Position numbers and translations under genes: made by a program
DNA from: a virus
Virus record (IMG/VR): IMGVR_UViG_3300049846_002561
Coordinates: 1 to 64,000 of that record
Direction: 5' to 3' (one strand)
DNA length: 64,000 nt
Part shown: positions 6,889 to 27,876 of the stretch, piece after piece
How positions within the stretch are numbered: the first letter of the stretch is position 1
Layout of the letters: each line of letters begins with the position of its first letter
The notes under the pieces: model-generated
What the model saw: only the letters and a program-made list of their open reading frames with translations
Told to the model about the DNA's origin: nothing
Database searches by the model: none

Positions 6889-9518
6889 ACATTGAAGAGA
6901 ACATGAAGATCTCTTACTGCATCCCGGTAGAGCTCCGCGATGAGCAGATAAAAATAAACATCGGTAAAGTAAAGGAGCGACTATCTCCATCTACTGAACT
7001 GATAAAGGAGCCAATCGCATTAGTTAGCTTTGGCCCTTCTTTAAACGATACGTGGAGGGAGCTCAAGAAGTTCAATCACATCATCACCTGCTCTGGAGCG
7101 CACAAGTTCCTTCTTGACAAAGGCCTCTCCCCAAATAATTTCAAGCACTGGTATCACGCCGACCTAGATCCAAGGGAGTATAAAATAAAGATACTCGGAG
7201 AGCCAAGGCACGGCATCGAGTACCTTATCGCCTCAACAATTCACCCGAAGTATTTAGATGCCCTAAAAGGCTACGACGTTAAGCTGTGGCATATATTTGC
7301 TACCGACGATGAGGCAGAGAGGGTTCTTCCCAGAGGAGAGTGGAAGTTTACCGGTGGATCATCCGTTGGATTGAGAACGTTTACACTGGCAAGGGCACTA
7401 GGATATACCGACTTCCACGTGTTTGGAATGGATGGTAGCATGAGGCCAAATGAGACTCATACCACAGAGCACCCAAATCCACCACCTCAATCTGCGGAGA
7501 CAGAGTATAAGGGGAAGAAATATATCACTACGCCATCAATGCTCCACGTAGCCAAGGAAACCTTTAAGGAAATGGATCAGCTCCCTGACTGTAAGTTTAA
7601 GTTCTACGGAGAAGGACTCGTTCAGGATATGGCAAAGGACTACGTTCCAAATGTAAAAAGAGGCTCTAGTCTTGCTTTTGTGTCCGAGGAAACGATTTCT
7701 AAGGAGTATATTGAACTCAATAGGAAGTTACACGAGGACAACCCCTCCTACGGAATGGGAGGTAGCAAGTACGTGAATACGGTTCTTGAGCTCTCTAAAG
7801 CAAATAAGACTACTAGCATCCTTGATTATGGATGCGGAAAGGGAATGCTCGCAAAAGGACTTCCTTTCCCTATATGGGAGTATGATCCCGCCGTTCTGGG
7901 TAAAACAACGGTTCCCAAACCAGCAGATATAGTTGTGTGTACGGATGTTCTTGAGCATATAGAACAGGACAAACTGATGATCGTGCTTCAGGATTTGAAG
8001 AGGTGTGTGAAGCAGGTTGGATACTTTGTGATAAGCACAAGGAAGGCCGTGAAGACCTATGCCAATGGCGAAAATGCTCACCTCATTGTTCAGGGCAAAG
8101 ATTGGTGGGAAAAGAAACTCAAGAAGTATTTTGAAGTTGGAACAGTAATTGAAAAAGAAAAGGAATGTGAGCTTCACGTTATTGTTGGCCCAAAGAAAGA
8201 GGTTCAGCCGGAGATAACCACTATTGAAAAAGGTGGACTGAAGTTTAAGTTCTACACTCCAAATGATACTACAAGGTGGAGGGCAAACACGCTGTTCATA
8301 AAAGAGCCGACAACGATAGATTGGCTAGACTCAATAAAGCATGGGGAGGTGTTGTATGATGTTGGCGCTAACGTTGGATCTTATACCGTGTATGCCGGGG
8401 TGCGAGGGGTAAAGGTATACGCATTTGAACCGGAGGCAGAGAACTATGCCATGCTCGTGAGAAACATGAGGTTAAATGGGCTAGATCCTACAGCCTACTG
8501 CGTTGCGTGTTCTGATAAGCAGAGAACCGTTAGCCTGTCTGATTATAAGTTTGAATTTGGAATGCTCAATTTAAGTATGCCGGGCGCTGGAGGATCGTGT
8601 CATAGCTTTAATGAAAAGGAAAGCAACATTAAACAGGGATGCTTTTCGACTTGCATAGACAACATTGCGGGGAAACTGTTTTGTCTTCCAAAGCCCGATC
8701 ACATTAAAATTGACGTGGATGGAATAGAGCATTGCGTAGTGTTTGGAGCTGCGAACACCCTGAAAGATGTGAAGTCGATCATTGTGGAGATTGATCCAAA
8801 TTCAGAAAATCATAAGAAGATGATTTTAGAACTAGAAAGACTTGGGTTTTACTATGACCAAGCTCAAGTTGATAGGGCAACAAGAAAAGAAGGGAATTTC
8901 AAAGGATATGCAGAATATGTATTCAGAAAAAATGTCTTAAAGACGTCGGCTCATGTTTATCCGTTTTTTGTTTTAGATAATGTGTTTACAGAAAACTACG
9001 ATAAGATAGTTGAAGTTTCACGAAATTTAAAGTATCAATCCCTTGAAGAGGCAAGGGGCACAAAGGGATATCCAGAGAGATATGTAGCCGGCGTTGATGA
9101 AAAATCTTTTTTACTGATAAAAAACGGCATCAATCAGCTAAAAAAAGAAATCTGTGAAGAGTTCAATCTTAACGCTGAAGACTATGATACAGACCTTCTG
9201 TTCATAAACGATAAGCCAGGATACAAGATAGGAGTCCACAGAGACAGGCTAGACAAAGTAGTAACGGCTTTGATATACCTTCCTGAAAACACAAACAATA
9301 GTCATGCCGGGACGTCCATCTATAAACCAAAGAAAGAAGGATTTTCTTGCCCTGTCGGTAAACACTATGGATTTGATGATTTTGATAAGGTTGAAACTAT
9401 TGGGTACGTGCCAAACAGGGCGTTTGTATTCCTCAACACAGATCACTCCTTCCATGGCGTAGAGCCTTGTGATGTGGAAAGACATGTTTTGCTAATGAAT
9501 TTAAACAAGAAAAAATGA
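6861..9518 (+). CDS. Four-domain glycan-modifying protein: DUF115 / methyltransferase / FkbM / 2OG-Fe(II) oxygenase
   Basis: Four domains can be read in the 885 aa. Residues about 45-270 resemble the DUF115/MptE-like Rossmann domain (VSFGPSLND at 55-63). Residues about 290-445 are a class I SAM methyltransferase (ILDYGCGKG at 320-328). Residues about 465-695 are an FkbM-type methyltransferase (DVGANVGS at 500-507, KIDVDG at 616-621). Residues about 715-885 resemble a 2-oxoglutarate/Fe(II) oxygenase, with H793 and D795 (HRD), H865 and R874 placed as metal and 2OG ligands. FkbM enzymes O-methylate sugars, which fits the surrounding glycosyltransferases. Whether the target is a virion glycan or a host surface sugar is unknown. 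It overlaps its neighbours on both sides. Confidence 0.75.
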   Translation: MEEKEKKHLNIEENMKISYCIPVELRDEQIKINIGKVKERLSPSTELIKEPIALVSFGPSLNDTWRELKKFNHIITCSGAHKFLLDKGLSPNNFKHWYHADLDPREYKIKILGEPRHGIEYLIASTIHPKYLDALKGYDVKLWHIFATDDEAERVLPRGEWKFTGGSSVGLRTFTLARALGYTDFHVFGMDGSMRPNETHTTEHPNPPPQSAETEYKGKKYITTPSMLHVAKETFKEMDQLPDCKFKFYGEGLVQDMAKDYVPNVKRGSSLAFVSEETISKEYIELNRKLHEDNPSYGMGGSKYVNTVLELSKANKTTSILDYGCGKGMLAKGLPFPIWEYDPAVLGKTTVPKPADIVVCTDVLEHIEQDKLMIVLQDLKRCVKQVGYFVISTRKAVKTYANGENAHLIVQGKDWWEKKLKKYFEVGTVIEKEKECELHVIVGPKKEVQPEITTIEKGGLKFKFYTPNDTTRWRANTLFIKEPTTIDWLDSIKHGEVLYDVGANVGSYTVYAGVRGVKVYAFEPEAENYAMLVRNMRLNGLDPTAYCVACSDKQRTVSLSDYKFEFGMLNLSMPGAGGSCHSFNEKESNIKQGCFSTCIDNIAGKLFCLPKPDHIKIDVDGIEHCVVFGAANTLKDVKSIIVEIDPNSENHKKMILELERLGFYYDQAQVDRATRKEGNFKGYAEYVFRKNVLKTSAHVYPFFVLDNVFTENYDKIVEVSRNLKYQSLEEARGTKGYPERYVAGVDEKSFLLIKNGINQLKKEICEEFNLNAEDYDTDLLFINDKPGYKIGVHRDRLDKVVTALIYLPENTNNSHAGTSIYKPKKEGFSCPVGKHYGFDDFDKVETIGYVPNRAFVFLNTDHSFHGVEPCDVERHVLLMNLNKKK

Positions 9519-10222
9519 ATACGGTATACATAGGGTACGATTACCGGGAGGCTTTAGCGTACAACGTAGCTGAGCACTCCATTAAAAGCAGATCTGTTGG
9601 TGTCAGAGTGCAAATGTTGAGGCTTCAGGATTTAAGGTCACTGATATACAGGAAAGTAGAGATGCGCGGAAATCAGATGTGGTGTCCTATAAGTGAGGCT
9701 CCCGTTGGAACAGAGTTTACGTTCAGCAGGTTCTTGATACCAAAGATGGATTCCGGGTGGTCGATATTCATGGACTGCGATATCGTGTGCGTATCAGATA
9801 TAAGGGAGCTGTTTGAGTTCATAAACGCTCCGGAAAACCAAAAGTATGCCGCCATGTGCGTAAAACACAATTATGTTCCAAAGGAAAAGATACACATGGT
9901 AGATCAGATACAGACTGTTTATGACAGGAAAAACTGGGCATCCGTAATTGCTTTTAATTGCGATCACGAGGCGCACAGAAGGCTTTCCTTTGAGGACATA
10001 AACACGTGGCCCGGAAGGGACCTGCACGCTCTTAAATGGATGAAGGACGAGGAAATAGGAGAGCTGCCCGCTGAGTGGAACCACCTTGTTGACGTGAACG
10101 ACCCTAATCCAGGCGCCAAGATACTACATTATACCCTCGGTGGGCCATGGATACCGGGGTGGCAGCCAAAAGAAAGCGATAACGCATGGATTGAAGAATA
10201 CAATAAATTTATATCTTTGTAG
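9515..10222 (+). CDS. Glycosyltransferase, GT8-like (GT-A fold)
   Basis: The 235-aa protein starts YIGYDYREALAYNVAEHSI, a start seen in GT8-like phage and bacterial transferases. A DxD metal/nucleotide-sugar motif (FMDCD, D87-C-D89) is followed by a WNHLVD segment and an HYTLGGPW segment near the C-terminus, as in GT-A enzymes. It starts 4 nt before the end of the upstream fusion gene (ATGA overlap), so they are cotranslated. Donor and acceptor cannot be deduced. Confidence 0.75.
   Translation: MNTVYIGYDYREALAYNVAEHSIKSRSVGVRVQMLRLQDLRSLIYRKVEMRGNQMWCPISEAPVGTEFTFSRFLIPKMDSGWSIFMDCDIVCVSDIRELFEFINAPENQKYAAMCVKHNYVPKEKIHMVDQIQTVYDRKNWASVIAFNCDHEAHRRLSFEDINTWPGRDLHALKWMKDEEIGELPAEWNHLVDVNDPNPGAKILHYTLGGPWIPGWQPKESDNAWIEEYNKFISL
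10190..10219 (+). promoter_or_regulatory. Bacteroidota-type promoter, leaderless
   Basis: ATTG at 10190-10193 and TATCTTTG at 10212-10219 are 18 nt apart. The ATG of the following gene is at 10225, 6 nt after the -7 box. The promoter lies inside the end of the glycosyltransferase gene. Confidence 0.6.
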
Positions 10223-10224
10223 TC

Positions 10225-10641
10225 ATGTCTTCAAGTCCCGGAGCTACATTCAGAGATTTCTATGCGCATAGCGCACCGTGGCCTATCCCCGACTGGTTTA
10301 CTCCAAACGGGGTGGGTCCCCGCCCCGCGGACATAACGCCCCCAGATGAGTACTTCGTATATGATCCGGATAATGCCGCAACGGCTCAGTACGGACTGTA
10401 CAAATTTTACGATCGTGATACCAACTACTGGGATGATGACGAGGCGGCCATCGAGACCGGTGAGGCCGTGCCACACGCCTTTAAGAATGAGGTGAGTGAG
10501 TACTGGGCGGCATACGACTACCGCGTGGCGGAAATAAACGTATGGCAGCGTGACTACGACAAGGAAAGATACTTTCAGTGGCGCTGGTACTACGCCGATG
10601 AGATGCTCGTGAAGAGAGAATACGGAAACATATCAAACTAA
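10225..10641 (+). CDS. Hypothetical acidic Trp/Tyr-rich protein
   Basis: The 138-aa protein is strikingly rich in Tyr, Trp, Asp and Pro (for example YFQWRWYYADE near the C-terminus). It has no Cys, signal peptide or membrane segment. The aromatic, acidic composition resembles fibre-adaptor or chaperone-like phage proteins, but no family is recognised. It has its own leaderless promoter, so it may be expressed apart from the flanking glycosyltransferases. Confidence 0.55.
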   Translation: MSSSPGATFRDFYAHSAPWPIPDWFTPNGVGPRPADITPPDEYFVYDPDNAATAQYGLYKFYDRDTNYWDDDEAAIETGEAVPHAFKNEVSEYWAAYDYRVAEINVWQRDYDKERYFQWRWYYADEMLVKREYGNISN

Positions 10642-10654
10642 CAATAACGAAACA

Positions 10655-11401
10655 ATGACAACAGCTACAGAACAGATACCGTTGATAATTCCGGTATTCA
10701 ACCAACTGACATTTACAAAGAAACTGGTGGACTCCTTCCGGAAGTACTATCCAAAGAACAGGATATACATCCTCGACAACGGCTCTACATATCAGCCACT
10801 GAAAGACTGGCTAAAGGCCATAAACGATGGAACGGAAGAGCAAAACGTTGTTGTCTTTCATTCCCCTGAAAATGATTTTCGTGGCAACCTACGCCACTTC
10901 CTTGACGACTACATTCACGTAGGATATCCTTTCTACGCAATTTCCGATCCCGATATCGAGATCCTCGATGGGACACCTGAAGACTTCATGAGCTACTTCA
11001 TGACCGCTATCGAGGTTGGTGGATTGCATCGCGCAGGCTTTGGCCTTAAAACGGATGACATCCCAGATTACTTTGAAGATAAGGCCATGGTGGTGGGCAA
11101 TGAGGCGGAGCTCAAGAAGTCGCCAATGTGGGCAAACAAGGTGCAGGGGTGGATCGCCCCCCTTGACACTACCTTCTGTCTATACAAACGAGACAACGGA
11201 GGGTGGGCATCGCCAATGGATGGCAAAAAGTGGGGTAGCTGCGCGCGTATATTCGAGGCTAAGCACTGGGGTTGGTACATCGATCCAAACAATGTAAGTG
11301 AAGAGATGGACTTCTACTTTAAGACGTGCAATAAATTCATTCCAGGCACTCCCTCTGCCGGAGCAAACAACAATAGACCAAAGAAATATGAAAACAGTTA
11401 A
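10655..11401 (+). CDS. Glycosyltransferase, GT2-like
   Basis: The 248-aa protein has a GT-A start (IPLIIPVFNQLTFTKKLVDS), then YILDNGST, the usual GT2 nucleotide-binding strand. A DPD motif (D98-P-D100) serves as the DxD site. An A-rich leader (ACAATAACGAAACAATG) precedes the start. Its last 14 nt overlap the next gene. Within this cluster it probably adds one sugar to a growing glycan; the specificity is unknown. Confidence 0.75.
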   Translation: MTTATEQIPLIIPVFNQLTFTKKLVDSFRKYYPKNRIYILDNGSTYQPLKDWLKAINDGTEEQNVVVFHSPENDFRGNLRHFLDDYIHVGYPFYAISDPDIEILDGTPEDFMSYFMTAIEVGGLHRAGFGLKTDDIPDYFEDKAMVVGNEAELKKSPMWANKVQGWIAPLDTTFCLYKRDNGGWASPMDGKKWGSCARIFEAKHWGWYIDPNNVSEEMDFYFKTCNKFIPGTPSAGANNNRPKKYENS

Positions 11402-11984
11402 CAGAATACACTACGAAGACGTGGTGAACAACGTTCTCCTTGTGGGGACACTTGATCATAATGTGTTTCAGGGGTTCCTGGAAGATTACAGAACCCTCTC
11501 CTGCTTACTTAAAGAATATAAACCAAATTCTGTATTTGAGGTTGGAACAAACGTGGGCTCTGGTATCAATGTCATGGCTGCAGCGTTGCCCCTAGCTAAG
11601 ATATACAGCCTGGATCTCGACTATGAGACCATGATGCTCAACAGTAAGCAATATCCTATCGGTCCGAACGGAGAGGATCGCGTGGGATCGGCGGCAAGAG
11701 TTCAGTACACACAGCTTCGCGGGGATAGCCTTACGTTTGATTATTCCGCATATCCATGTGAAGCGTACTACGTCGATGGAGAGCATGACTACGATCATCC
11801 GTTCAAAGAGACAAAGGAGATCCTAAAGCAAAAGCCAAAGATCGTCATTTACCATGACGCTGACATTCCAGAAGTATTTAAGGGAATCGTTGATGGCGGT
11901 GCGGAAGATGATGATTACGTTCTATTCCGCGTGGAAGGGACAAGGATCGCCTTTTACCTGCACAAGAATTTCGTGAAATGGTAG
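11388..11984 (+). CDS. Class I SAM-dependent methyltransferase (Methyltransf_24-like)
   Basis: The start ATG at 11388 is chosen because it follows AAAGAAAT and overlaps the upstream stop by 14 nt; in-frame sequence upstream lies inside the previous gene. The 198-aa product has SAM motif I (FEVGTNVGSG), an acidic strand-2 end (SLDLD), and YYVDGEHDYD followed by IYHDAD, as in Methyltransf_24/cephalosporin-hydroxylase-like enzymes that methylate sugars or small molecules. It overlaps the next gene by 7 nt. It probably O-methylates the cluster's glycan. Confidence 0.72.
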   Translation: MKTVNRIHYEDVVNNVLLVGTLDHNVFQGFLEDYRTLSCLLKEYKPNSVFEVGTNVGSGINVMAAALPLAKIYSLDLDYETMMLNSKQYPIGPNGEDRVGSAARVQYTQLRGDSLTFDYSAYPCEAYYVDGEHDYDHPFKETKEILKQKPKIVIYHDADIPEVFKGIVDGGAEDDDYVLFRVEGTRIAFYLHKNFVKW

Positions 11985-12670
11985 GCATTGTAGTTATCGC
12001 CTACAATAAACCCGACTTCATACGCCTGCAGATAGAGAAAATAAGTAAGTACTGCAAGGACGTGCACGAGATCGTTATTGTAGACAACAGCACGGACAGG
12101 GAGATGTCCGCCGCTGTAAAGTATCACTCGGAGGGGCGCAAGTACATAAAAACAAACGCCTCCTCTTCCGGGGGTAGTCAGTCGCATTCCTTTGCTGCCA
12201 ACCTATCGTTCATGCGCCTATGCGGAAAGTATGATTACTTCCTGTACCTCGATCATGACTGCTTCCCTGTAATGGACTTCTCCGTTCCTGAGATATTGGG
12301 TGAAAAAATTATTGCCGGTGTGGGGCAGGTGAAGGGAGAGAAGACGTACCTGTGGCCGGGGTGCCTGATGTGGAAGGGAGAAGCCATCGCCCCAGGTTAT
12401 ATCGACTTCTCTCCAAATGAGGAGCTTGGTCTTGACACCGGCGGTAACCTATACCGAATTGTCGATCACTATGGCCGGGAAAAGGTTTTGTTTCTAAATG
12501 AGGAGCACTGCGAGAACCCGCAATTCAATAAGTCCTTCTATAACTTTTACTGCATGATAAACAATGGTATGTTCATGCACTTTGTAAATGGCAGTGTCTG
12601 GAACAAAACAGTATCCGATGACGAAAGAGTGAACTCCCTTATAAACATACTAACCGAAAAAACGAAATGA
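11978..12670 (+). CDS. Glycosyltransferase, GT2-like
   Basis: The 230-aa protein starts VGIVVIAYNKPDFIRLQIEK, followed by IVIVDNST, the classic GT2 start. A DHD motif (D92-H-D94) in FLYLDHDCF acts as the metal site. It overlaps genes on both sides by a few bases, forming one coupled series with 11388 and 12667. The sugar specificity is unknown. Confidence 0.75.
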   Translation: MVGIVVIAYNKPDFIRLQIEKISKYCKDVHEIVIVDNSTDREMSAAVKYHSEGRKYIKTNASSSGGSQSHSFAANLSFMRLCGKYDYFLYLDHDCFPVMDFSVPEILGEKIIAGVGQVKGEKTYLWPGCLMWKGEAIAPGYIDFSPNEELGLDTGGNLYRIVDHYGREKVLFLNEEHCENPQFNKSFYNFYCMINNGMFMHFVNGSVWNKTVSDDERVNSLINILTEKTK

Positions 12671-15594
12671 AGTGCGCCGTAATTTTTTACCACAAGAATG
12701 CCCTGCAGATATACAGGAGAGAGTGGATAAATGACTGTATCTACACAATAAAAAATCAGACGTTCAAGAACTTTGATGTTTTTGAGCTTAACTACGGCGG
12801 ATCCGAAGATCGCTTTGGTGAGGGCGTTTTTAGTAATTACATATTCATCCAAAAGCAAATGGAGAATCACATAGAGGCCATGAACTATCTATACTCTATG
12901 TTGTTTGCTAATGGATACGACGTGGTATTTAATACCAACCTTGATGACTTTTACTCGGAGCGTAGGTTTGAGGTACAGCTTTCATACATAGAGCAGGGAT
13001 ACGACATCGTTAGCTCAGACTTCAAGTATGTGAACGAGAGGTCCGAGGCATACAAGGACATGGTGATGACTCAAAAGGGTGGTATTGCGGAAAACCTGGC
13101 AAGGAACCACAACGTTATAGCCCATCCATGTGTGGCCATGAGTAAATCCTTCTGGGACGACAACCTACACTATAAAAACATCCTCGGAAGTGAGGATCTA
13201 GACCTATGGAAGAGGGGCGTTGTTGCGGGCAAGAAGTTCTTCATTATCCCTGAGTTCCTGTTGTTCTACAGGATCCACGATACGCAGGTAACCAAGGAAT
13301 TTCGGTCAAAAAAAAAGGTTAACCTAATGGTGATCGCCACAAATAAGTACCGGCACTTTGTGGCGCCATTACTTGACTCTGCAGATAAGTACTTCCTCGA
13401 TGATTGCGACGTAGAGTATTGCGTGTTTACAGACGATATTACGGACATGGAAAAGCGCCTCAATAGGCCGTGCCACATCTTCGAGGTCAAGCATCAGCCG
13501 TGGCCATACATGACCCTCCATCGCTTCCATGTGTTTAGGAAGTACATGAACGACATGCCTACGGCGGACTACTATGCGTACATAGATGCAGACACTCTGT
13601 TTAAGGGTATTATCACCAAGGAAATACTCAGCAACGAAACGGTTGTGCAGCACTGCGGCTTTACAAATCAAAGGGGGCCATACGAGACGAACCCTATGTC
13701 AGAGAGCTTTGTTCCCCCTCAGATGGGAACCCATTACTTCGGAGGTGGATTTTGGCTATTCTCAAAGGAGCGATTCCCGCACATCGTAAACTTGGCCATA
13801 CAGATGATAGACACGGATGCCGGTAGAGGAATAATACCGGTGTGGCATGACGAAAGCGTGTTGAATAAATTAATGGTAATGTCTCCGCCGGAGAAGATAC
13901 TGCCCCCCGCATACCACTATCCTCAGTCCAGGACCGCCCATTACATAAAAAAGTGGGGTCGTAACTACGAGTGTAAAATACTGCTTCTTGACAAAAATCA
14001 CGATGAGTATCGCAAGGAAGATGAAAAGCCAGAGGTCTCAGTGTGGCTAGAGAGATATCCATTTGTTACCATGTCTAACTTCGGTAGCAACGGTCGCCTT
14101 GGGAACATGATGTTTCAGTACGCCTTCCTGATCGGATTATCAAAGAAGTACAACGTGGACATCAAAATGCCAGCGTTCAGGAACATGCCTGACACCAGAC
14201 CGGAGTCCATGGAAAACGTGCTCCCGCGTAAGGAAAGGAGCTTTCACTACACGCCTCAGTACTATGACGAGATGAACTGGCAGCGGTCGTGGGACTTCTC
14301 CGGATACTTCCAAAGCGAAAAGTACTGGTCTCACTGCCGGGAGGCGGTAATATCGGCGCTTGCCTTTAATGACGGCGATCACATGGGCGCTGTTGAGTCC
14401 ATGGGTAATGCCTTCTCCAGGGAGACGATCGCCATCCACATTCGCCGCGGAGACTACGTAAATAACAAAAACTACTATCAGCTCACGGCAAGGTACTACA
14501 TATTGGCCCTTGAGGAGAATTTCCCTAACTGGAGGGACTGTAACCTGGTATTTTTCTCAGATGACATTGAGTATGCCATGATCCACTTTGAGTGTCTCGA
14601 TAACGCATACTTCTCTGAGGGGCATAGCGAGATAGAGGACATGTTCCTAATGTCCAAGTGCGACAATCACATAATAGCCAACTCCACCTTCTCGTGGTGG
14701 GGAGCATACCTCTCAAAAAGTAAGAAGGTAGTTTGCCCGGCAAACGTCTTTGACACCAAGATGAAGGTCACGCACAATACCAAGGACTTCTATCCGGAGG
14801 GGTGGGTAAAGTTCAGTGATGAGGGTAAGAGGATAAACCTACAGAACCTTACTTTTATCATACCGGTAAAGTTTGATCACCGTGACAGGATACAGAACTT
14901 TGAGATATCTACCGCTATGATACGCGAGAATTTCGTGGCTCCGATATATGTTGGTGAGATCGCTAAGGTGGGAACATTCTTTAATAAGAACTGCGATGTA
15001 TACACGGAGTTCAAGATGCACAACTTCCACCGCACAAAGATGATCAACGACATGGTGAAGAAGATAAGCACCCCGTTCTTTGTAAACTATGACTGTGATG
15101 TTCTCCTCGCCCCCATGCAAATCATGGAGGCTGTACGTAAGCTACAACAGGGAAGTGACATGGTATCGCCATACGACTGGAGGTTCTCCAGGGTGCCTCG
15201 CGCATGGGAGCCCGCGCTCAAAAAGAACACCGATGTAGGCATATTCTCCGGTCACAGGAACTCTTTCATAGGGTTCCGTGAAGGGGACAAGGAGAGCTGG
15301 GGGGGAGCTATATTTTTCAACAAGGAATCGTTCATAAAAGGAGGAATGGAAAATGAGAACTTTATATCTTTTGGTCCTGAAGATTCGGAAAGGCTTCAGC
15401 GATTTTCTAAGCTTGGATTTTCGGTATGCAGAGTTAGGGGGCCACTCTATCACCTCGATCACTTTAAAGGAATTGATAGCGGGAAAACTCATGCGTTTTT
15501 TCAGAAAAATAAAGCCGAGTTCAAGAAAATACTCGCCCTGAGCGCTGAAGATCTTAGAAAATATGTAGATTCGTGGTCATGGTTAAAGGCTTAA
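12667..15594 (+). CDS. Four-module glycosyltransferase: GT2-like / GT6 / GT11 / GT7-like
   Basis: This 975-aa protein reads as four joined transferases. Residues 1-215 are GT2-like (DD at 93-94). Residues about 219-455 match GT6, the ABO family: YIDADTLF with DAD at 307-309, GGGFWLF (359-365) and WHDESVLN (393-400). Residues about 466-715 match GT11 alpha-1,2-fucosyltransferases: GRLGNMMFQ (476-484), HIRRGDYV (591-598) and NSTFSWWGAY (672-681). Residues about 727-975 resemble the GT7 galactosyltransferase C-terminal domain: DCD (809-811), GGAIFFNK (879-886) and FGPEDSE. Known GT6 enzymes add alpha-1,3 Gal or GalNAc to acceptors that GT11 enzymes can fucosylate, so the set fits a blood-group-like antigen. 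That product is inferred. Confidence 0.78.
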   Translation: MKCAVIFYHKNALQIYRREWINDCIYTIKNQTFKNFDVFELNYGGSEDRFGEGVFSNYIFIQKQMENHIEAMNYLYSMLFANGYDVVFNTNLDDFYSERRFEVQLSYIEQGYDIVSSDFKYVNERSEAYKDMVMTQKGGIAENLARNHNVIAHPCVAMSKSFWDDNLHYKNILGSEDLDLWKRGVVAGKKFFIIPEFLLFYRIHDTQVTKEFRSKKKVNLMVIATNKYRHFVAPLLDSADKYFLDDCDVEYCVFTDDITDMEKRLNRPCHIFEVKHQPWPYMTLHRFHVFRKYMNDMPTADYYAYIDADTLFKGIITKEILSNETVVQHCGFTNQRGPYETNPMSESFVPPQMGTHYFGGGFWLFSKERFPHIVNLAIQMIDTDAGRGIIPVWHDESVLNKLMVMSPPEKILPPAYHYPQSRTAHYIKKWGRNYECKILLLDKNHDEYRKEDEKPEVSVWLERYPFVTMSNFGSNGRLGNMMFQYAFLIGLSKKYNVDIKMPAFRNMPDTRPESMENVLPRKERSFHYTPQYYDEMNWQRSWDFSGYFQSEKYWSHCREAVISALAFNDGDHMGAVESMGNAFSRETIAIHIRRGDYVNNKNYYQLTARYYILALEENFPNWRDCNLVFFSDDIEYAMIHFECLDNAYFSEGHSEIEDMFLMSKCDNHIIANSTFSWWGAYLSKSKKVVCPANVFDTKMKVTHNTKDFYPEGWVKFSDEGKRINLQNLTFIIPVKFDHRDRIQNFEISTAMIRENFVAPIYVGEIAKVGTFFNKNCDVYTEFKMHNFHRTKMINDMVKKISTPFFVNYDCDVLLAPMQIMEAVRKLQQGSDMVSPYDWRFSRVPRAWEPALKKNTDVGIFSGHRNSFIGFREGDKESWGGAIFFNKESFIKGGMENENFISFGPEDSERLQRFSKLGFSVCRVRGPLYHLDHFKGIDSGKTHAFFQKNKAEFKKILALSAEDLRKYVDSWSWLKA

Positions 15595-15653
15595 TGGTTA
15601 TAGCATGCGTTCTTATTATCTCTGCGATCTGCATCTATGGAGAAAAAAAATGA
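15579..15653 (+). CDS. Possible 24-aa membrane peptide
   Basis: A short frame, ATG 15579 to TGA 15651-15653, bridges the 975-aa glycosyltransferase and the Stealth-type gene and overlaps both. The product, MVKGLMVIACVLIISAICIY plus GEKK, is one hydrophobic helix with a charged end. The overlapping position and membrane character are suggestive. A peptide this short could be chance. Confidence 0.3.
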   Translation: MVKGLMVIACVLIISAICIYGEKK

Positions 15654-16389
15654 TCTTGTATACATTGTAGGTGCCGGATCGCCGTGGCTGAACAACGAGC
15701 TGCGCTACTCCCTGCGAAGCGTAGATAAGTTCCTAAAGAACTACAGGAACGTATTTATATTTGGTGAGTGCCCTATATTTATCAATAGGTCGTCCGTGAT
15801 ACACGTCCCGCACCAGGATACAAGCAGAGATAAGGCAGTGAACATAAAGAATAAGCTTATGTCCGTATGTTGTCATCCCGACGTTAGCGAGGATTTTATG
15901 TTCTTTAACGACGACTATTTCCTGCTAAAGGATGTTGACGCTACCAGCTACCCATATCTGTGGAAGTGCGACCTTGATCACACCCTATCAATAAACAGGT
16001 CCCTGTACCGCCATCACGTTCAATCAACAATAAATGTACTTACAGAGAACGGCCTTCCAACAAAAAACTTTGACACCCACAAGCCGATCATATACAACAA
16101 GCAAAAACTCTGGGACGTTATATTTAAATACAACTGGGAGGGGCGCGCCGGCTATACCATGCGGTCCCTATACTGCAATACCCTCGGCATAGAGGGTGAG
16201 TATCGCCTGGACTGCAAGTTTAACGTGCCCATGCACGATGTCCGCCTGGAGCAGAAGGTTACCGGTGAGGATTGCTTTTCCATTGATGATAGGTGCATAG
16301 GAATGTTCCTCAAGCGCTTCATGGAGAGAACCTACTCGGAACCGTCACGATTTGAACGGGAGATATTACCGGTAAAGGGTACCTCGTAG
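15637..16389 (+). CDS. Stealth-type sugar phosphotransferase
   Basis: The 250-aa protein contains DLVYIVGAGSPWLNNELRYS near its N-terminus and FMFFNDDYFLL with NDD at 91-93. Both match Stealth CR1/CR2 regions of capsular-polysaccharide phosphotransferases, which move hexose-1-phosphate from a nucleotide sugar onto a glycan. It is shorter than cellular Stealth proteins and seems to lack the later conserved regions. It ends the glycan block. It could add sugar-phosphate to a virion or host glycan. Confidence 0.7.
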   Translation: MEKKNDLVYIVGAGSPWLNNELRYSLRSVDKFLKNYRNVFIFGECPIFINRSSVIHVPHQDTSRDKAVNIKNKLMSVCCHPDVSEDFMFFNDDYFLLKDVDATSYPYLWKCDLDHTLSINRSLYRHHVQSTINVLTENGLPTKNFDTHKPIIYNKQKLWDVIFKYNWEGRAGYTMRSLYCNTLGIEGEYRLDCKFNVPMHDVRLEQKVTGEDCFSIDDRCIGMFLKRFMERTYSEPSRFEREILPVKGTS

Positions 16390-17869: not shown

Positions 17870-17885
17870 CAAATTTTTAATTAAA

Positions 17886-17906
17886 AAAGCCCCGAAGGGC
17901 TCTTTT
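17886..17906 (-). terminator. Intrinsic terminator of the tmRNA transcript
   Basis: On the minus strand AGCCC, a TTCG loop and GGGCT are followed by TTTTTT, placed immediately after the tag stop codon. The plus strand also reads A-rich, stem, T-rich, so the terminator may work in both directions. Confidence 0.8.
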
Positions 17907-18258
17907 TTAGGCTGCAAGTTTTGCAGTGTGACTAGCGCCTTCCTGGAAGAGGCTGATCACCTTTGTTTTTTTGTCGTTTAGTACTTCCCGAAGATATCTC
18001 TTCTTCTCGGCTCACTGATCAAAACCGGTCGGACCCATGTCGGAACAGTGCTCTCAGCCAGGGCGCTTTGAACCGTTGGCCAATGGAAGATGTTCCGTTT
18101 GTTCGGCGAAGAACATTTCTTTAGTTGCCTTTCCGGCAGGACTGTCCTGCATCTCTTTGTTATCAGTCCTTCTTCAACTATCATGACAACAACCGCTTTA
18201 ATTAAGCTACGGTAGGGTGGATCCGGAGGGATTCGAACCCTCGTCTCAATGAACGGCG
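17907..18258 (-). ncRNA. ssrA: Circularly permuted (two-piece) tmRNA
   Basis: On the minus strand the 3' half comes first. P2 strand GTTCATTGA (18254-18246), then GAC, a 5-bp T-stem with TTCGAAT loop (18242-18226), acceptor strand CGGATCC (18225-18219), A73, and CC. About 180 nt later comes the 5' half. Acceptor GGGTCCG (18036-18030) pairs 7/7 with the 3' strand and contains G3-U70, the alanine identity pair. Next are CGGTTTTGA, a tmRNA D-loop match, and TCAGTGAGC (18018-18010), which pairs 9/9 with the P2 strand including two G-U pairs. A reading frame then ends HTAKLAA-stop (17930-17907), a typical degradation-tag end. Rescue of stalled ribosomes is the known role. The resume codon, pseudoknot and processing sites are uncertain. 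Confidence 0.85.
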
Positions 18259-18259
18259 A

Positions 18260-18267
18260 TAAAGGTA
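18260..18267 (-). promoter_or_regulatory. Possible -7 box for the tmRNA
   Basis: TACCTTTA on the minus strand (18267-18260) would start transcription about where the first tmRNA helix begins (18254). The -33 region is poor. It interlocks with the divergent promoter at 18277-18308. Confidence 0.4.
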
Positions 18268-20104: not shown

Positions 20105-22441
20105 GTGGTCCGTGAGAACCACCTTGACTTTTTATTTGAGTTATATTCACAGGGAGTAGAGCTCACACTCGAGCAAAAAGCACAGCTATACGAAAGTAAG
20201 CGTATAGCCGAGAATCCAATAAAAAGAAACGAGAACGATCTACCGGACAACATCTCCGAAAAGAAACTCCTTTCCAAGGAGGCCCTTGCAATAGATCAGA
20301 ACGTTGACATCGTAACAGAGGCCGGGCCACTGGTAATAGCAGACGACGACCTAGAAGAAAGAAGGAAGAAAGGTAAGTACATATTCGAGGGAAGGAAGTT
20401 CGATATCACCAAAGACGAGTGGATGCCCAAGTCCACGATCGACCACGAGCCCGACTTTGTAAGGTGGGTGGACTCTATACTCGATATGGGATTCGAAAAC
20501 AGAGTAAACTACAGAAAAATAAACCTATACGTTCAACAGGCATATACCTGGCTAGCTCAAAAAGACACCTACCTCGACTTCCCAAATGCAGAGGAAAGGA
20601 AAGAGTTCATGCTCGAAGAAACGCGTAGGTGCGACGAAAACACGCTTTACTTCCTCAATAAATACGTTTACTACCAAGAGGGAGACGCCGACACCGGAAA
20701 GTTCAAGTACACCGCATCCCCAGCACACGAGGTAATGGCATACCTCAACGACTGCGGTTACTCAGCGTGCTACGTAAAGGGACGTCAGATAGCGGCAACA
20801 ACAACCCTCATGGCGTGCGACGTTAAAGACATGATATTCAAGAAGAACCACTTCATGAAGTTCATAACCGAAGATCAGGAAAAGGCAGAGGAGATCTTCG
20901 AAGATAAACTCAAGTACTGCTTCTCCCAGCTGCCAGACTGGATGAAGCCCGACGTACAGAACGAAAGGGACAACTACTTCAAGCTAGGTAAAAAAGAGGG
21001 TAAAGGAAACCGAAACGGAGTGAACTCCAGGATACGCGTAGTGCCGCCAAAGAAAACAGCGATCGCCGGTGGAGCGCCACAGAAAGTAAAGATAGACGAG
21101 GCCGGAAACATAGGACTTCTGACCGTAATGATCAACAATGCACGTCCAACGATGTTCATGTATGACCCCGCAACAAAATCAATGAAGATGAAGCGTCAGC
21201 TCATTTTCTGGGGGACAGGGGGCGAGATGGAAAAAGGAGGAATGGCATTCCAGGTGGAGTTCATGTCACTGCTAAAGCAATGGAAGGAGCGTAACTTCAA
21301 GTCAGGCATTATCCCTATCTTCTTTAACTGGACGTGTCGCCCGGGAGCTACGCAGGAGCTGTACGACGCTGAGAAATCCGTGGCCTACTCAAAGGAAGGG
21401 CCAGACCTCAAAAAGTCAATAATAGAGTTCCACCAATCATGGCCAAAGTCACTGGCCGATGTATTCATGACCTCAGAGAAAACACTCGTGAGCCACGAAT
21501 ACATAGAAAAGCAGATAAGCAGGATAAAAGCAGCAAACGTAAAGTTCAAGCATAAGCTCGTTGAACGAGGGTTCTTTGAGCCGATATATGACTTTACATC
21601 ACCGGCACCAGAGGCCTCCGACGTTCCATATAAGATCATAGGAGCCAACTTCGTGCCTTGTGACTCCATAGACCCAAGGGCCTCAGTGGTTATCTTCTCT
21701 CATCCAAAGAGAGGGTGGGAGCACCGCTACTTCCAGGGAACCGACCCTATATCAACAGACACCGGGCTCTCAAACTTCTCAAGCGCCGTTTGGGACAAGC
21801 ACTTCAAGACATTCGCTGCAATGCTCGACTTTAGGACAAAGGACTACAGAGCCACATTCCTTCAATCCGTACTGCTCGGGCTTTACTACGATACCAGGCC
21901 AAACCCAAGGGGTATAAAGGAACTCGTGGAGGCAAACATCGGTCAGTCTTACACCCAGTACAAGGAAAATAAAGGCTTTGGAGACTCATTGGTGCTCAAC
22001 TACGAGCTACCTCCATACCTACAAAACAAAACGACCATAAATGAAGGTATTGGCATAGACAACAAAGGAGCAAGGAATACCGTGATCGTAAATAGACTTC
22101 ACGAGCTGATTCAGGCATACGGCGACAATCTATTTATAGAGATATTCTGGGAGCAGCTAAAAACATTCGTGTGTGAGGTAACCGACGGAGGTAAAGAGTC
22201 CTGGGGGCCATCCAACAGAAAGTTCTTCCGAGATGACACCCTTTTTGGAGGAAATTATTCTTATATTTGTGCTGAGCTGTGCTACCCTGAACTAAACCCG
22301 GTAGACAACGAAACAACAAACAAAAAGACAGAAATCGTTAAGTACGAGCTGACCTACGACGAGAACTATAACCTCGTAAGAATGCCAGTGAGATACATAA
22401 ATGGAAAACGTGCAAATACTTTTCAAGCCAAAAGAAGGTAA
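20105..22441 (+). CDS. terL: Terminase large subunit
   Basis: The 778-aa product is the packaging motor, with ATPase and nuclease halves. A P-loop-like segment VKGRQIAATTT (224-234) sits where TerL Walker A lies, but the usual G-K of RQxGKS is A-A; K225 may supply the lysine, as in other terminases with an early Lys. Walker B is VKIDEAG (328-334). In the nuclease half, D547 (QGTDP) and RDD (709-711) are candidate metal ligands. The start is GTG at 20105, 30 nt after the previous stop. It overlaps the next gene by 41 nt. The product drives DNA into the prohead through the portal encoded downstream. Confidence 0.88.
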   Translation: MVRENHLDFLFELYSQGVELTLEQKAQLYESKRIAENPIKRNENDLPDNISEKKLLSKEALAIDQNVDIVTEAGPLVIADDDLEERRKKGKYIFEGRKFDITKDEWMPKSTIDHEPDFVRWVDSILDMGFENRVNYRKINLYVQQAYTWLAQKDTYLDFPNAEERKEFMLEETRRCDENTLYFLNKYVYYQEGDADTGKFKYTASPAHEVMAYLNDCGYSACYVKGRQIAATTTLMACDVKDMIFKKNHFMKFITEDQEKAEEIFEDKLKYCFSQLPDWMKPDVQNERDNYFKLGKKEGKGNRNGVNSRIRVVPPKKTAIAGGAPQKVKIDEAGNIGLLTVMINNARPTMFMYDPATKSMKMKRQLIFWGTGGEMEKGGMAFQVEFMSLLKQWKERNFKSGIIPIFFNWTCRPGATQELYDAEKSVAYSKEGPDLKKSIIEFHQSWPKSLADVFMTSEKTLVSHEYIEKQISRIKAANVKFKHKLVERGFFEPIYDFTSPAPEASDVPYKIIGANFVPCDSIDPRASVVIFSHPKRGWEHRYFQGTDPISTDTGLSNFSSAVWDKHFKTFAAMLDFRTKDYRATFLQSVLLGLYYDTRPNPRGIKELVEANIGQSYTQYKENKGFGDSLVLNYELPPYLQNKTTINEGIGIDNKGARNTVIVNRLHELIQAYGDNLFIEIFWEQLKTFVCEVTDGGKESWGPSNRKFFRDDTLFGGNYSYICAELCYPELNPVDNETTNKKTEIVKYELTYDENYNLVRMPVRYINGKRANTFQAKRR

Positions 22442-22988
22442 GCTAAAGCAGATGTACCCTGAGCTTAACTCCAACAAGAAGTTCAAGGATCTGTCCGGGG
22501 AAGAACTTCTTTTTGTTTGGTACTATGCATGTAAGTCCAGTCCCATAGACCCTTCATTGCCAGATGCTTTAAGGGCAAATACTGCCGCCGCAGAATCAAT
22601 AAAAAGGGACAAAGCCAAAAGAGAGAAGTTCTCAAACCTAGATTTCCCCGAGCGCATAAAAGAGGCTATAGAGGAAATGGAGAAGTACAATCCAGACGTC
22701 AGGATGGTAGCTAAAAGGATCATTCAGAACAGCTTCAACATGCTCGAAAAAATGTCAAACACCTCGATCGATCAGTTTGAAACAGTTGAAGACGACGGCA
22801 AGGGGAACTCCATAAAAAAAATAGACTGGTCCGGAAGGAAACAGTTCGTTGATACCGTAGCGAAAATAGCAGACACCATGCCCGCTCTGATCGCTCAAAT
22901 GGAACAGGGATATGGCATTGTTGACGAAAAGGGAGAAAACGCATCAGAAAAAATTATTGACATATACCACTCAAGAAAAGAAGAATGA
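22401..22988 (+). CDS. Hypothetical protein between terminase and portal
   Basis: The 195-aa protein begins 41 nt inside the terminase gene and ends with ATGA overlap to the portal gene. It is charged and helical (FPERIKEAIEEMEKYNPDVR, then RIIQNSFNMLEKM). It has no recognised motif. The fixed position between TerL and portal suggests a packaging or portal accessory role. Confidence 0.6.
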   Translation: MENVQILFKPKEGKLKQMYPELNSNKKFKDLSGEELLFVWYYACKSSPIDPSLPDALRANTAAAESIKRDKAKREKFSNLDFPERIKEAIEEMEKYNPDVRMVAKRIIQNSFNMLEKMSNTSIDQFETVEDDGKGNSIKKIDWSGRKQFVDTVAKIADTMPALIAQMEQGYGIVDEKGENASEKIIDIYHSRKEE

Positions 22989-25258
22989 TATTTTTAATAG
23001 ACACCTCAGAGTCCAGGCCAGACATGCTGGAAGGATCCAAAGATGAAAAGTATCATCTTTCAATGGCAAGGTACGCCGTTGGGCAAGCAAACACCCAGAA
23101 ACACCTGGAATTTGTGTCAAACATTGAGAGGAACAGACGCTTCTACGCCGGAGATCAATGGTACCTTCAGGAAGACACCGAGACTTTTTTTAAAGACGAG
23201 AACAACCAAGAAAGGAACAGGATAAAGGTTATAAACAATACCATCCGTCCAATGGTTGAGAACTACAGGGGTAACGCCATAAGGATGCAAATAAACGCCA
23301 ACGCAAAAAGCATCTCACCACTGGCTATATCTAGAAGGCAAAAGATCCTCTCAAAGATGCTTTTCTTCACAGACATAGCAAACGAAGAAGGCAACCCATT
23401 TAAGCAAGATCTCCAAAAAAGACTGCCCATAGGTAATAGTCAATCTGAAACTGAAGACACTTTTAATAATCTTTATACCGACAGGTATGTAGAAACGATC
23501 AACGACCTTCTGTCGTTTGTTTCAGATAAAAATAAATTTCAGTCAAGGCAGGTGCGAGCAGCCGAAGACCTGGCTTTATGTGGCCTTGCGGTAATGAAAG
23601 ATTTTGAATCAGGAGGGCACCAATACTTTGACCTCGTTCCGCCAGAGCACTTTATATGGGATCGATCGTGCAAGGAAAGCGACCTTTCAGATTCTGAGTT
23701 CATGGGAGAGCTCAAGTACATGACCCTTTCTGATATAAATGAAGAGGCGCCTAATTTAACGGCGGATGAAAGGAAATCTATACAAGCGTACATCGCTTCA
23801 GGTTCAAACACAAATGCCAATGGAAGCACCCTTGAGGCCGGCGTAGAAACGAAATATACATACGGCGGAAGGTGCCCCGTTTTCTACATGGTATGGAAGG
23901 ATACAGAGAAGCATGAATATGGATACGTGAAGGATCCGTTTGGATATCCATACTTTACAAGGATAAATCACAAAGAGGACTGGGAAGATGCGCCTAAATA
24001 CACCGACAAGGACCTTATTGAAGTTGACTCCGTAAGGTCAAGGAGATTACTGAAGGGTAAACTCAAGGCCTCCGTGTACACAGACGTAATAAGATACTGC
24101 AACTTTATTCCAAGGGAAGTTCTTTTAAGCCCAACGAATGCCGACAAAGAAAAGATTCACGACGTAATACTAGAGTGGGGACTCCTTCCTTATCAGGAAA
24201 CAGAAAACCTTGATGTTAGCAACGTCAACTATCCATACAAATGCTGCACGTGGGCATACGTGGATGGACAGGTGCTATCGCCCGTTGATGACGCCATAAG
24301 CCCTCAGAGGATGATAAATAGGGTTCTATCTGTTGCCGAAAATCAAATCAATAACTCACGGGGATCGGGAACGTTCTACGACAAGTCAATGGTAGATCCG
24401 CAGGATGGAGAGGCAGAGATGCTGAGGAACATGAACCAGTCTAAACCGGTTGGAATAAACGCAAAGGGAAGGGGCATCCAAAACGCCGTTAGCCAATACG
24501 ATACAACGGTAAAGAACGGAACAATGACGCTCTTTAACATCGTTTCACTGATGTCTGACTACACCCAAAAGATGACAGGCATAAACGAGGCTATCAAAGG
24601 AGAGTCTACTGGCTCAGACCAGCTTGTGGGCGTTACCCAGCTAATGATCCAAAGGGGATCTTTAATGCAAGAACCGTTCTATAACGCGATCACGAGCCTA
24701 TACCTTCAGTGTTATCAGTCAATAGCCTCTAGGGGCGTGAAAATATATGCCGACAACGAAAGGGAACTCACCATTGCCGTTGGAGACGTGGGGGCTAAGA
24801 TTGTAAACATAACAAAAGACATGAAGCTCGAAGACTTCAGGGTCTTTGTGAAGAGAGATAATCCAGACGATGTACTCGTTCAATCAGGAAATCAAATGCT
24901 TACCTTCTTGCTACAAATGCAACTCATAAACAATGAGGACTTCGCTCTTATGTATGGAAGGTTCACCCCAGACATGATCACCGCGTCACTCAGAAAGAAA
25001 GCCCTGGAGAACAAAGAGCTAGGAAAGATGCAAGCCCAACAGGAACAGCAGCAGTCCGAAGCCGCAATGATGGAAGCTCAAAAGGCACAGGCTCAGCAAG
25101 AGATGATGTACAACGAGGCCGTGGCAAGGGACGACATCAAAGACCTACAAAACAAAAAGCACGAAGAGAGATTGCAGGCCATGAAAAATCTAGGCTCTAT
25201 TGCCAAGAACAGTCCAATGGCCCAAAGAAAAATACTGGAAGACTCAAAAAATTTGTAG
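22985..25258 (+). CDS. Portal protein
   Basis: The 757-aa protein forms the dodecameric gate of the capsid by family inference. Supporting features are its position after TerL, its length, the N-terminal segment RNRRFYAGDQWY typical of portals (small domain contacting substrate), and the conserved portal-like helix region MTGINEAIKGESTGSDQLVG. A Gln/Ala-rich helical C-terminus (QQEQQQSEAAMMEAQKAQAQ) resembles the barrel/crown of podovirus portals. It overlaps the upstream gene by 4 nt. Confidence 0.82.
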   Translation: MIFLIDTSESRPDMLEGSKDEKYHLSMARYAVGQANTQKHLEFVSNIERNRRFYAGDQWYLQEDTETFFKDENNQERNRIKVINNTIRPMVENYRGNAIRMQINANAKSISPLAISRRQKILSKMLFFTDIANEEGNPFKQDLQKRLPIGNSQSETEDTFNNLYTDRYVETINDLLSFVSDKNKFQSRQVRAAEDLALCGLAVMKDFESGGHQYFDLVPPEHFIWDRSCKESDLSDSEFMGELKYMTLSDINEEAPNLTADERKSIQAYIASGSNTNANGSTLEAGVETKYTYGGRCPVFYMVWKDTEKHEYGYVKDPFGYPYFTRINHKEDWEDAPKYTDKDLIEVDSVRSRRLLKGKLKASVYTDVIRYCNFIPREVLLSPTNADKEKIHDVILEWGLLPYQETENLDVSNVNYPYKCCTWAYVDGQVLSPVDDAISPQRMINRVLSVAENQINNSRGSGTFYDKSMVDPQDGEAEMLRNMNQSKPVGINAKGRGIQNAVSQYDTTVKNGTMTLFNIVSLMSDYTQKMTGINEAIKGESTGSDQLVGVTQLMIQRGSLMQEPFYNAITSLYLQCYQSIASRGVKIYADNERELTIAVGDVGAKIVNITKDMKLEDFRVFVKRDNPDDVLVQSGNQMLTFLLQMQLINNEDFALMYGRFTPDMITASLRKKALENKELGKMQAQQEQQQSEAAMMEAQKAQAQQEMMYNEAVARDDIKDLQNKKHEERLQAMKNLGSIAKNSPMAQRKILEDSKNL

Positions 25259-26601: not shown

Positions 26602-27876
26602 ATGTCACAAAAAGCATACACTCCCGGGATCGGAAACAGCATCTTCGGGATGTTGACAGCAAACCCTCAGTCGTCAAACTATGGCACTGAATCAGGTTAT
26701 TCTCCAACGGAGACCAACCTTATCGCAAAGGCGATTAAAAATGCAATCTTTGACTCTGCCCCTGAGCAGTTCAACGCTTTGCGCCTCATCTTCGAAAAGC
26801 CGATGGAAGAAAAGCTCGGTCGCGAATTTGAGTACCTCGAGAAAACATTCGGACGTAGCGCCCTGGAAGCTACTGCAGGTGTAGCGGCTCAGCCAGCAGT
26901 GGTTGGTGTCCCTCAGACGCAGGTGATTCCTATGACCGCGAACTCCGTGAGCCGTATCACCCCGGACCTCATCATTGTTTACCCAAATAACGCAAAGGCT
27001 GTGATCAAGTCGATCGCCGGTCTTAACGTTACCGTTGAGTCTCAAACAAGTGACGGCCTGCCTGCGGTTTCAAATGGAGACGTGTTCTCTATTATGTCTA
27101 CCATCCAGGCAGATGGAATGGACTACTTCTCGAACTACGAGAGGATGGAGACCATCACCCGCTACAACTACATTCAGGAGTTCCTGCGCGCTCGTCGTTG
27201 GACCAGAATGGAGCTTGCCCAATTCGAGAACCTCGGCACAACCGACTACCTCGTAAAGGACAAGGCGGAGACCATCCGTCAGCTTCGCGTTGACTTGTTC
27301 AATGCGTTCTTCAACGGACAGCGCGGTGAGTTCCAAATCAGCAACAACTACGTGACAACCGCCATGGGAGGAATCTTCCCTACAATGGTTGACGCTGGTT
27401 CTGCTAACGCGAACCCAACCCTCGCCGGATTGATCCCTGTGTTCAAGTCCCTTGCCTTCAATACCAACTTCAAGGCAGAAGGTGGAACCCGTTTCATCTA
27501 CGGAACTCAGGAGATCCTTCATGAGTTGAGCGGAGTGTTCAAAGAGCCAGGCTTGCGCTATGCTCCAAACGACACCATCGCGTCCATGGACCTCAAGAAG
27601 TACAATTTCGGTGGAATGAACTTCGTTCCGGTTCCTTGTGAGCTGTTCCGCGAAGTGTCTTGCTTCCCTGCCGATTGGGCTCGCAGGATCCTCGTTCTCG
27701 ATCAGGAAACGATCTCCCCTGTAAGGATGAAAGGTATTCCTTACATGAGCGTAGGTCAAACCCTTGATCGTGGAGCCAACGGTACTCGCGAGAACTTCAA
27801 GGACTTCTACATCGAAGCAAACCTGTCACTCCAATTCCACAACCCACTTGGGTCGTTCTGGATCGACATCCAATAA
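26602..27876 (+). CDS. Major capsid protein (HK97-fold)
   Basis: The 424-aa protein follows the scaffold gene, has a phage MCP-like length and composition, and reads like HK97-fold capsids: an N-arm, a long helix (ALRLIFEKPMEEKLGREFEY), a strand-rich P/A domain (SRITPDLIIVYPNNAKAVIK), and a C-terminal segment ending LGSFWIDIQ. Codon use is strongly biased to C/G-ending forms compared with its neighbours, consistent with very high expression. A strong terminator follows immediately. An A-rich leader replaces a Shine-Dalgarno. Confidence 0.85.
   Translation: MSQKAYTPGIGNSIFGMLTANPQSSNYGTESGYSPTETNLIAKAIKNAIFDSAPEQFNALRLIFEKPMEEKLGREFEYLEKTFGRSALEATAGVAAQPAVVGVPQTQVIPMTANSVSRITPDLIIVYPNNAKAVIKSIAGLNVTVESQTSDGLPAVSNGDVFSIMSTIQADGMDYFSNYERMETITRYNYIQEFLRARRWTRMELAQFENLGTTDYLVKDKAETIRQLRVDLFNAFFNGQRGEFQISNNYVTTAMGGIFPTMVDAGSANANPTLAGLIPVFKSLAFNTNFKAEGGTRFIYGTQEILHELSGVFKEPGLRYAPNDTIASMDLKKYNFGGMNFVPVPCELFREVSCFPADWARRILVLDQETISPVRMKGIPYMSVGQTLDRGANGTRENFKDFYIEANLSLQFHNPLGSFWIDIQ

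Follow-up and report, generated by a model that had tools for sequence, protein, structure and literature searches.

A circularly permuted tmRNA gene in a phage of Bacteroidota type and its relatives in other viruses

Introduction

A locus in a viral genome with Bacteroidota-type features reads as a gene for tmRNA, the RNA that rescues stalled ribosomes, in which the 3′ half stands ahead of the 5′ half. Is this a real permuted tmRNA gene, does it work, and where did it come from? Existing descriptions place the rise of permuted tmRNA in three cellular lineages. That phages in general can carry the permuted form was published in 2022 (PMC9004378), with a tally of 53 called by ARAGORN, of which 50 came from marine or aquatic samples. 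The Rfam model for this form, RF04321 (tmRNA_permuted), is a merger of the alpha (RF01849), beta (RF01850) and cyano (RF01851) models and was built from genes of these three groups (PMC11915505, whose tmRNA database holds only 79 phage sequences). The DNA analysed here (the window) is a stretch of 64 kb from a 73.5-kb IMG/VR record. We conclude that the locus is a real permuted tmRNA gene, and that it is part of a large group in viruses of Bacteroidota, most of which has gone unrecognised.

Results

Architecture of the gene

The gene occupies 17883-18267 (−) of the window, with the acceptor half ahead of the coding half; this follows from reading the minus strand, on which all features of the gene lie, and from ARAGORN and Rfam. 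The 3′ (acceptor) piece (18219..18260; sequence, ARAGORN tmRNA* call and RF04321 alignment) consists of the P2 3′ strand (18254-18246), a GAC (18245-18243), the T-arm GAGGG-TTCGAAT-CCCTC (18242-18226) and the acceptor 3′ strand CGGATCC (18225-18219), each evident in the sequence, as are the discriminator A73 (18218) and an encoded CC (18217-18216) that follow; CCA itself is not encoded. An intervening sequence of 179 nt (18037..18215), whose removal is predicted, separates the two pieces. It exceeds that of most relatives (47-181 nt by the script's count in 43 unique genes, mostly 47-105 nt), and the Rfam scan gave no convincing RNA family match within it. The 5′ (coding) piece starts with the acceptor 5′ strand GGGTCCG (18036-18030), which pairs with CGGATCC at 7 of 7 positions, G3-U70 among them. 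The D-loop GGTTTTGA (18026-18019), common to related viral genes, leads into the P2 5′ strand (18018-18010), which forms nine contiguous pairs with 18254-18246, G-U counted in.

By its sequence context, a UAAAC element (17976..17980) abuts the resume codon GAC (17975-17973), where the tag DKKTKVISLFQEGASHTAKLAA begins; the same context is found in relatives. The tag reading frame (17907..17975) was assigned from ARAGORN, from this context and from the tag family in relatives, and closes with a TAA stop (17909-17907). It is followed by an intrinsic terminator (17883..17901; sequence and fold), whose hairpin, AGCCC-TTCG-GGGCT (17901-17888), leads into a T-run. A possible Bacteroidota-type −7 box lies in the TACCTTTA region (18259..18266); it reads TAnnTTTR, one off TAnnTTTG. 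Folding of the whole gene recovered the three helices (acceptor, T and P2) and showed that the intervening sequence they surround is itself structured. The half order, the acceptor pairing with G3-U70, the D-loop with its 9-bp P2 and the KLAA-stop frame ahead of a terminator had all been proposed in a sequence-only reading of this DNA, and each is borne out. Its tag, ND..HTAKLAA, holds at the KLAA end; the first residue, N, is part of the upstream element, and DKKTKVISLFQEGASHTAKLAA is the better reading.

Detection and controls

ARAGORN, which that reading had advised, made a single call in the 64 kb of the window, namely a permuted tmRNA (tmRNA*), and called none in 150 dinucleotide-shuffled versions of the window (9.6 Mb). 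RF04321 matched with 42.5 bits (E=7.6e-7 when 1.2 kb were scanned, E=1.1e-8 for the 73.5-kb record). This is below the gathering cut-off of 47 bits, which is a curator's threshold and not a biological feature. In the search with permuted Rfam models advised at the same time, the merged model found the gene, under its cut-off, and the window was absent among the matches listed for the alpha, beta and cyano models. Genes related to it scored 28-46 bits with RF01850 (cut-off 84); relatives compared with both models had 33-43 bits with the beta and 26 bits with the alpha model, each below its cut-off. The standard tmRNA model RF00023 (one piece, 5′ half first) does not describe the locus, giving only 20 bits over 42 nt.

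The virus and its host

Genes near the tmRNA encode the large terminase subunit (terL, 20105-22441), a P22-type portal (22985-25258) and a candidate capsid protein (26602-27876); other neighbours are a BT4734-like primase-helicase and a beta clamp. A Shine-Dalgarno-like site is present in only one of 53 genes, and 14 TTG-N-TAnnTTTG promoters were counted where 5.7 are expected; both features fit a Bacteroidota host. The contig of a capsid relative was located in a MAG of Kordia (Flavobacteriaceae). We infer that the window virus itself infects Bacteroidota. INPHARED held no match to the window at the level of DNA, capsid protein or portal, and IMG/VR yielded no relatives with the window TerL or portal as query; the major capsid protein (MCP) query did find them. 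A block of glycosyltransferase-like genes also lies in the window (9515-16389), with domains of families 2, 6, 7C, 8 and 11 and including a 975-aa multi-domain protein (12667-15594).

Relatives by capsid protein

The capsid relatives in IMG/VR are 58-76% identical to the window in that protein, and four distinct lineages of the phage group have a permuted tmRNA: the window, G006, G008 and G009-G011. The gene of G006 reached 55.2 bits with RF04321, over the cut-off, and was also called tmRNA* by ARAGORN; those of G008 (43.6 bits) and G009-G011 (46.5 bits) fell just under 47. A related phage whose MCP is 64% identical thus has its own permuted tmRNA above cut-off. The acceptor strands are GGGTCCG/CGGATCC in the window, GGGCCTA/TAGGTCC in G006, GGGGATA/TATCTCC in G008 and GGGGCCG/CGGCTCC in G009-G011, all fully paired through compensatory changes, with G3-U70 kept in each. 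As evidence against itself, the sequence-only reading had named the lack of a significant tmRNA-model score together with acceptor and P2 pairings that change without compensation in related phages; for the acceptor, these relatives display the opposite. In all four lineages the gene lies upstream of terL at a distance of no more than about 5 kb, although strand and exact place vary, and in G009-G011 it adjoins tRNA-Pro and tRNA-Gln.

Rfam found no tmRNA in the closest capsid relative (MCP 76% identical, 75-kb contig), which indicates that the gene is dispensable. This contig is one of three other capsid-relative contigs, possibly incomplete, in which no permuted tmRNA was found; a 16-bit match in G003 was rejected, as it had neither acceptor nor T-arm. 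The window tmRNA is nearer to the tmRNAs of other viruses (L076, 64%; L043; L088) than to those of its capsid relatives (45-53%), so that the gene appears to have been exchanged among phages.

A wider set of viral genes

IMG/VR was scanned with a pattern that fixed the T-loop, part of the T-stem and of the acceptor 3′ strand, and GGTTTTGA, and left the acceptor 5′ strand free. It matched 57 contigs, 53 of which allow 7/7 acceptor pairing (best of six offsets). Three or four matches are probably due to chance; L063, L093 and L073 were dropped as chance tRNA or misregistered matches. A match in G646 was not counted either, since it resembles the 3′ end of a standard tmRNA and has no matching 5′ half downstream. 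A narrower pattern led to L003 and L004; the L003 contig has a compact one-piece tmRNA, and the L004 record gave no RF04321 match.

The covariation analysis covered 43 unique genes, all of which had been selected as fully paired. Pair 5-68 occurs as A-U, G-C, U-A and C-G, and both sides change at pairs 4, 6 and 7 and at T pair 50-64. Pair 3-70 is G-U in all 43, where the pattern had fixed U70 and left G3 free. When acceptor strands were exchanged between genes, full 7/7 pairing occurred in 21%; P2 has a mean of 7.0 pairs, compared with 4.6 for exchanged strands. The exact −7 box TAnnTTTG stands directly upstream in 13 of the 43 genes (2.1 expected). The D-loop GGTTTTGA in these relatives was imposed by the search pattern, except in L022 and L025, which were found by Rfam.

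One further IMG/VR record has a compact, 134-nt one-piece tmRNA of standard order that ARAGORN missed (L010:1425-1558, IMGVR_UViG_3300027980_000259). It has the acceptor GGGCCTG/CAGGTCC with G3-U70, the D-loop GGTTTTGA and a T-arm; its frame, UAAAU|GCU... AQAKDYGYSSSG*, has no LAA end.

Tag peptides and resume codons

In nearly all unique viral genes a tag frame is present and UAANN precedes its resume codon, which usually starts with G. Their tags end in, for example, RAVA, RLAA, MKMAA or AAA, and fall into recurring families: GKVI...PLRAVA, GN..VTDYT.. and D(K)x(T/A)KV(V/I)SL...RLAA/KLAA. The window tag DKKTKVISLFQEGASHTAKLAA, long at 22 aa and ending in KLAA, belongs to the last of these. 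Conservation of such families (GKVI..PLRAVA, GN..VTDYT.., DKxKVVSL..RLAA) suggests that selection acts on the tag. In six genes (L026, L065, L083, L053, L084 and L042) the resume codon sits within a loop of 7 nt, and the pairs that close it, UAAC/GUUA or CAAC/GUUG (e.g. UAAC-NGGCAAA-GUUA), appear to covary; this hairpin is absent from the window gene.

Bacteroidota cells, a prophage and named phages

Only one of 396 genomes from the phylum of the Kordia MAG (G245) has a permuted gene over the cut-off, and there it lies in a prophage. This gene (L026; G245:C1:986035-986308; tag GKVIQMNNAPVRLAA) is on a 1.6-Mb Flavobacteriales contig, next to a tyrosine integrase, a family A DNA polymerase, a primase and a dNMP kinase, with ordinary metabolic genes beyond. 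The cell's own tmRNA is of the standard one-piece type, with the tag GEDNYALAA. G245 and the Kordia MAG belong to one order, as judged by two order searches that shared most genomes. Weak RF04321 matches in three further Bacteroidota genomes (L027-L029) were set aside because they are the standard tmRNAs of these genomes.

Permuted tmRNAs were also found in named phages: the isolate Chryseobacterium phage MA9V-3 (RF04321, 64.7 bits) and the metagenomic Crassvirales cr50_1, cr10_1 and cr124_1, all over the cut-off, and cr125_1 (46.3 bits). Cellulophaga phage Calle_1 has a standard tmRNA; thus phages of Bacteroidota use both forms. The GenBank records of MA9V-3 and the crAss-like phages label the feature only 'tmRNA', and a passage in PMC13120357 mentions that of MA9V-3 as a tmRNA, with no comment there on its form. 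The initial claim that no permuted tmRNA was known for Bacteroidota therefore needs qualification: these records already contained them, although in the literature accessible without subscription, supplements aside, we found no paper that describes permuted tmRNA in Bacteroidota phages. The underlying claim, a permuted tmRNA encoded by a Bacteroidota-type phage, is supported by ARAGORN, Rfam, covariation in relatives and the host evidence. In three of the Crassvirales (cr50_1, cr10_1, cr125_1; L097, L098, L101), RAGATH-22 and RAGATH-9 RNAs over their Rfam cut-offs lie no more than ~1.2 kb upstream of the permuted tmRNA.

Discussion

We are confident that the window locus encodes a functional two-piece phage tmRNA that is used in trans-translation with host factors. 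Processing, charging, tagging, proteolysis and a benefit to the phage are inferred for it by homology to characterised two-piece tmRNAs. A single transcript, acceptor half leading, would fold and thereby unite its two halves in the tRNA-like domain. RNase P would cleave before G18036 and the 3′ end would be trimmed after 18216-18218, with A76 presumably added by the host CCA enzyme to complete CCA. The product would be two RNAs joined by the acceptor stem and P2, which host AlaRS could charge with alanine via G3-U70. The phage records searched yielded no SmpB, which the host would therefore have to supply; with host SmpB and EF-Tu, the charged tmRNA would enter ribosomes stalled on broken mRNAs during infection. 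Stalled proteins would receive Ala plus DKKTKVISLFQEGASHTAKLAA, whose ...KLAA end would direct the tagged product to host ClpXP/ClpAP.

The RNA might instead compete with host trans-translation, as a decoy or a modified tmRNA, and not carry it out, or its special tag might route products elsewhere. Such a role would agree with phage tags that differ from the host GEDNYALAA and form conserved phage families; according to a passage in PMC11915505, the tag-less tmRNA of phage DS6A inhibits endogenous tmRNA. However, DS6A has no tag frame, whereas the window frame is open, with a standard resume context and a KLAA end like a protease tag, and we consider a decoy role improbable. Less probable still, and in our estimate very unlikely, is a functionless relic of integration or transduction, that is, a decaying or passively carried fragment of a host tmRNA. 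The RF04321 score under the cut-off, the missing gene in the nearest relative and the long intervening sequence are what such a fragment might show, but the pairings, resume context, tag and terminator are all intact, the gene recurs in phages and its stems covary. Moreover, the Bacteroidota cells checked (G245, L027-L029) have one-piece tmRNA, so a host relic would have the standard order. Chance pairing of a tRNA-like T-arm with unrelated downstream sequence, which probably explains three or four of the 57 pattern matches (L063, L093, L073), is already refuted for the window by covariation and by the 9.6 Mb of shuffles with no tmRNA*, every element fitting there.

The working two-piece tmRNA favoured here shares with the RF04321 genes an acceptor half that comes first, G3-U70, the T-arm, the GG-TTTGA/TTCGA D-loop, P2, a tag frame, UAANN before the resume codon and an xAA end. 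It differs from them in its 42.5 bits (cut-off 47), in being virus-borne and in having hosts with one-piece tmRNA. Methylophilales phage Melnitz and other marine phages likewise encode a permuted tmRNA (PMC9004378). The authors tied these to alphaproteobacterial, gammaproteobacterial or cyanobacterial tmRNAs, whereas the host phylum of the window virus has a one-piece tmRNA of its own; unlike in Melnitz-type phages, no glutamine riboswitch was found in the window, where no Rfam match exceeds its cut-off. The tmRNAs of cr50_1, cr10_1, cr125_1, cr124_1 and MA9V-3 are permuted by ARAGORN and RF04321 and have G3-U70 and the same resume context as the window gene, but their tags are of other families (GN..VTDYT..; GNVIDINKYVAKLEVAA).

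We tentatively suggest, as a possibility short of an even chance, that Bacteroidota phages hold a fourth, virus-borne lineage of two-piece tmRNA. It would stem from its own permutation event, separate from the alphaproteobacterial, betaproteobacterial and cyanobacterial ones, would be exchanged independently of capsid genes and, with host SmpB, would mark stalled proteins with phage-specific tags where the cell itself has one-piece tmRNA. A tree of such short genes is too weakly resolved to settle whether the origin was independent. Phages were already known to carry two-piece tmRNAs; what draws interest is that a large set of them is virus-borne in a phylum where the cells sampled have the one-piece form. 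Dozens of distinct viral permuted genes make the origin of two-piece tmRNA a testable question, as they do the question of why a phage brings a rescue RNA and tag when its host has both. In crAss-like and flavobacterial phages, annotation has either missed the permuted form or recorded it just as tmRNA; many of these genes can be recovered with a simple sequence pattern.

A phage from outside this set, Alcaligenes phage vB_Af_QDWS595 (L103), also has a permuted tmRNA (L103:1486-1739), which, unlike that of the window, is clearly of beta type (RF04321, 111 bits; RF01850, 93.8 bits, over the cut-off). The phage also has a tRNA cluster, in which one predicted tRNA has the anticodon tta (UAA suppressor-like); both are left unannotated in the record stretch examined.
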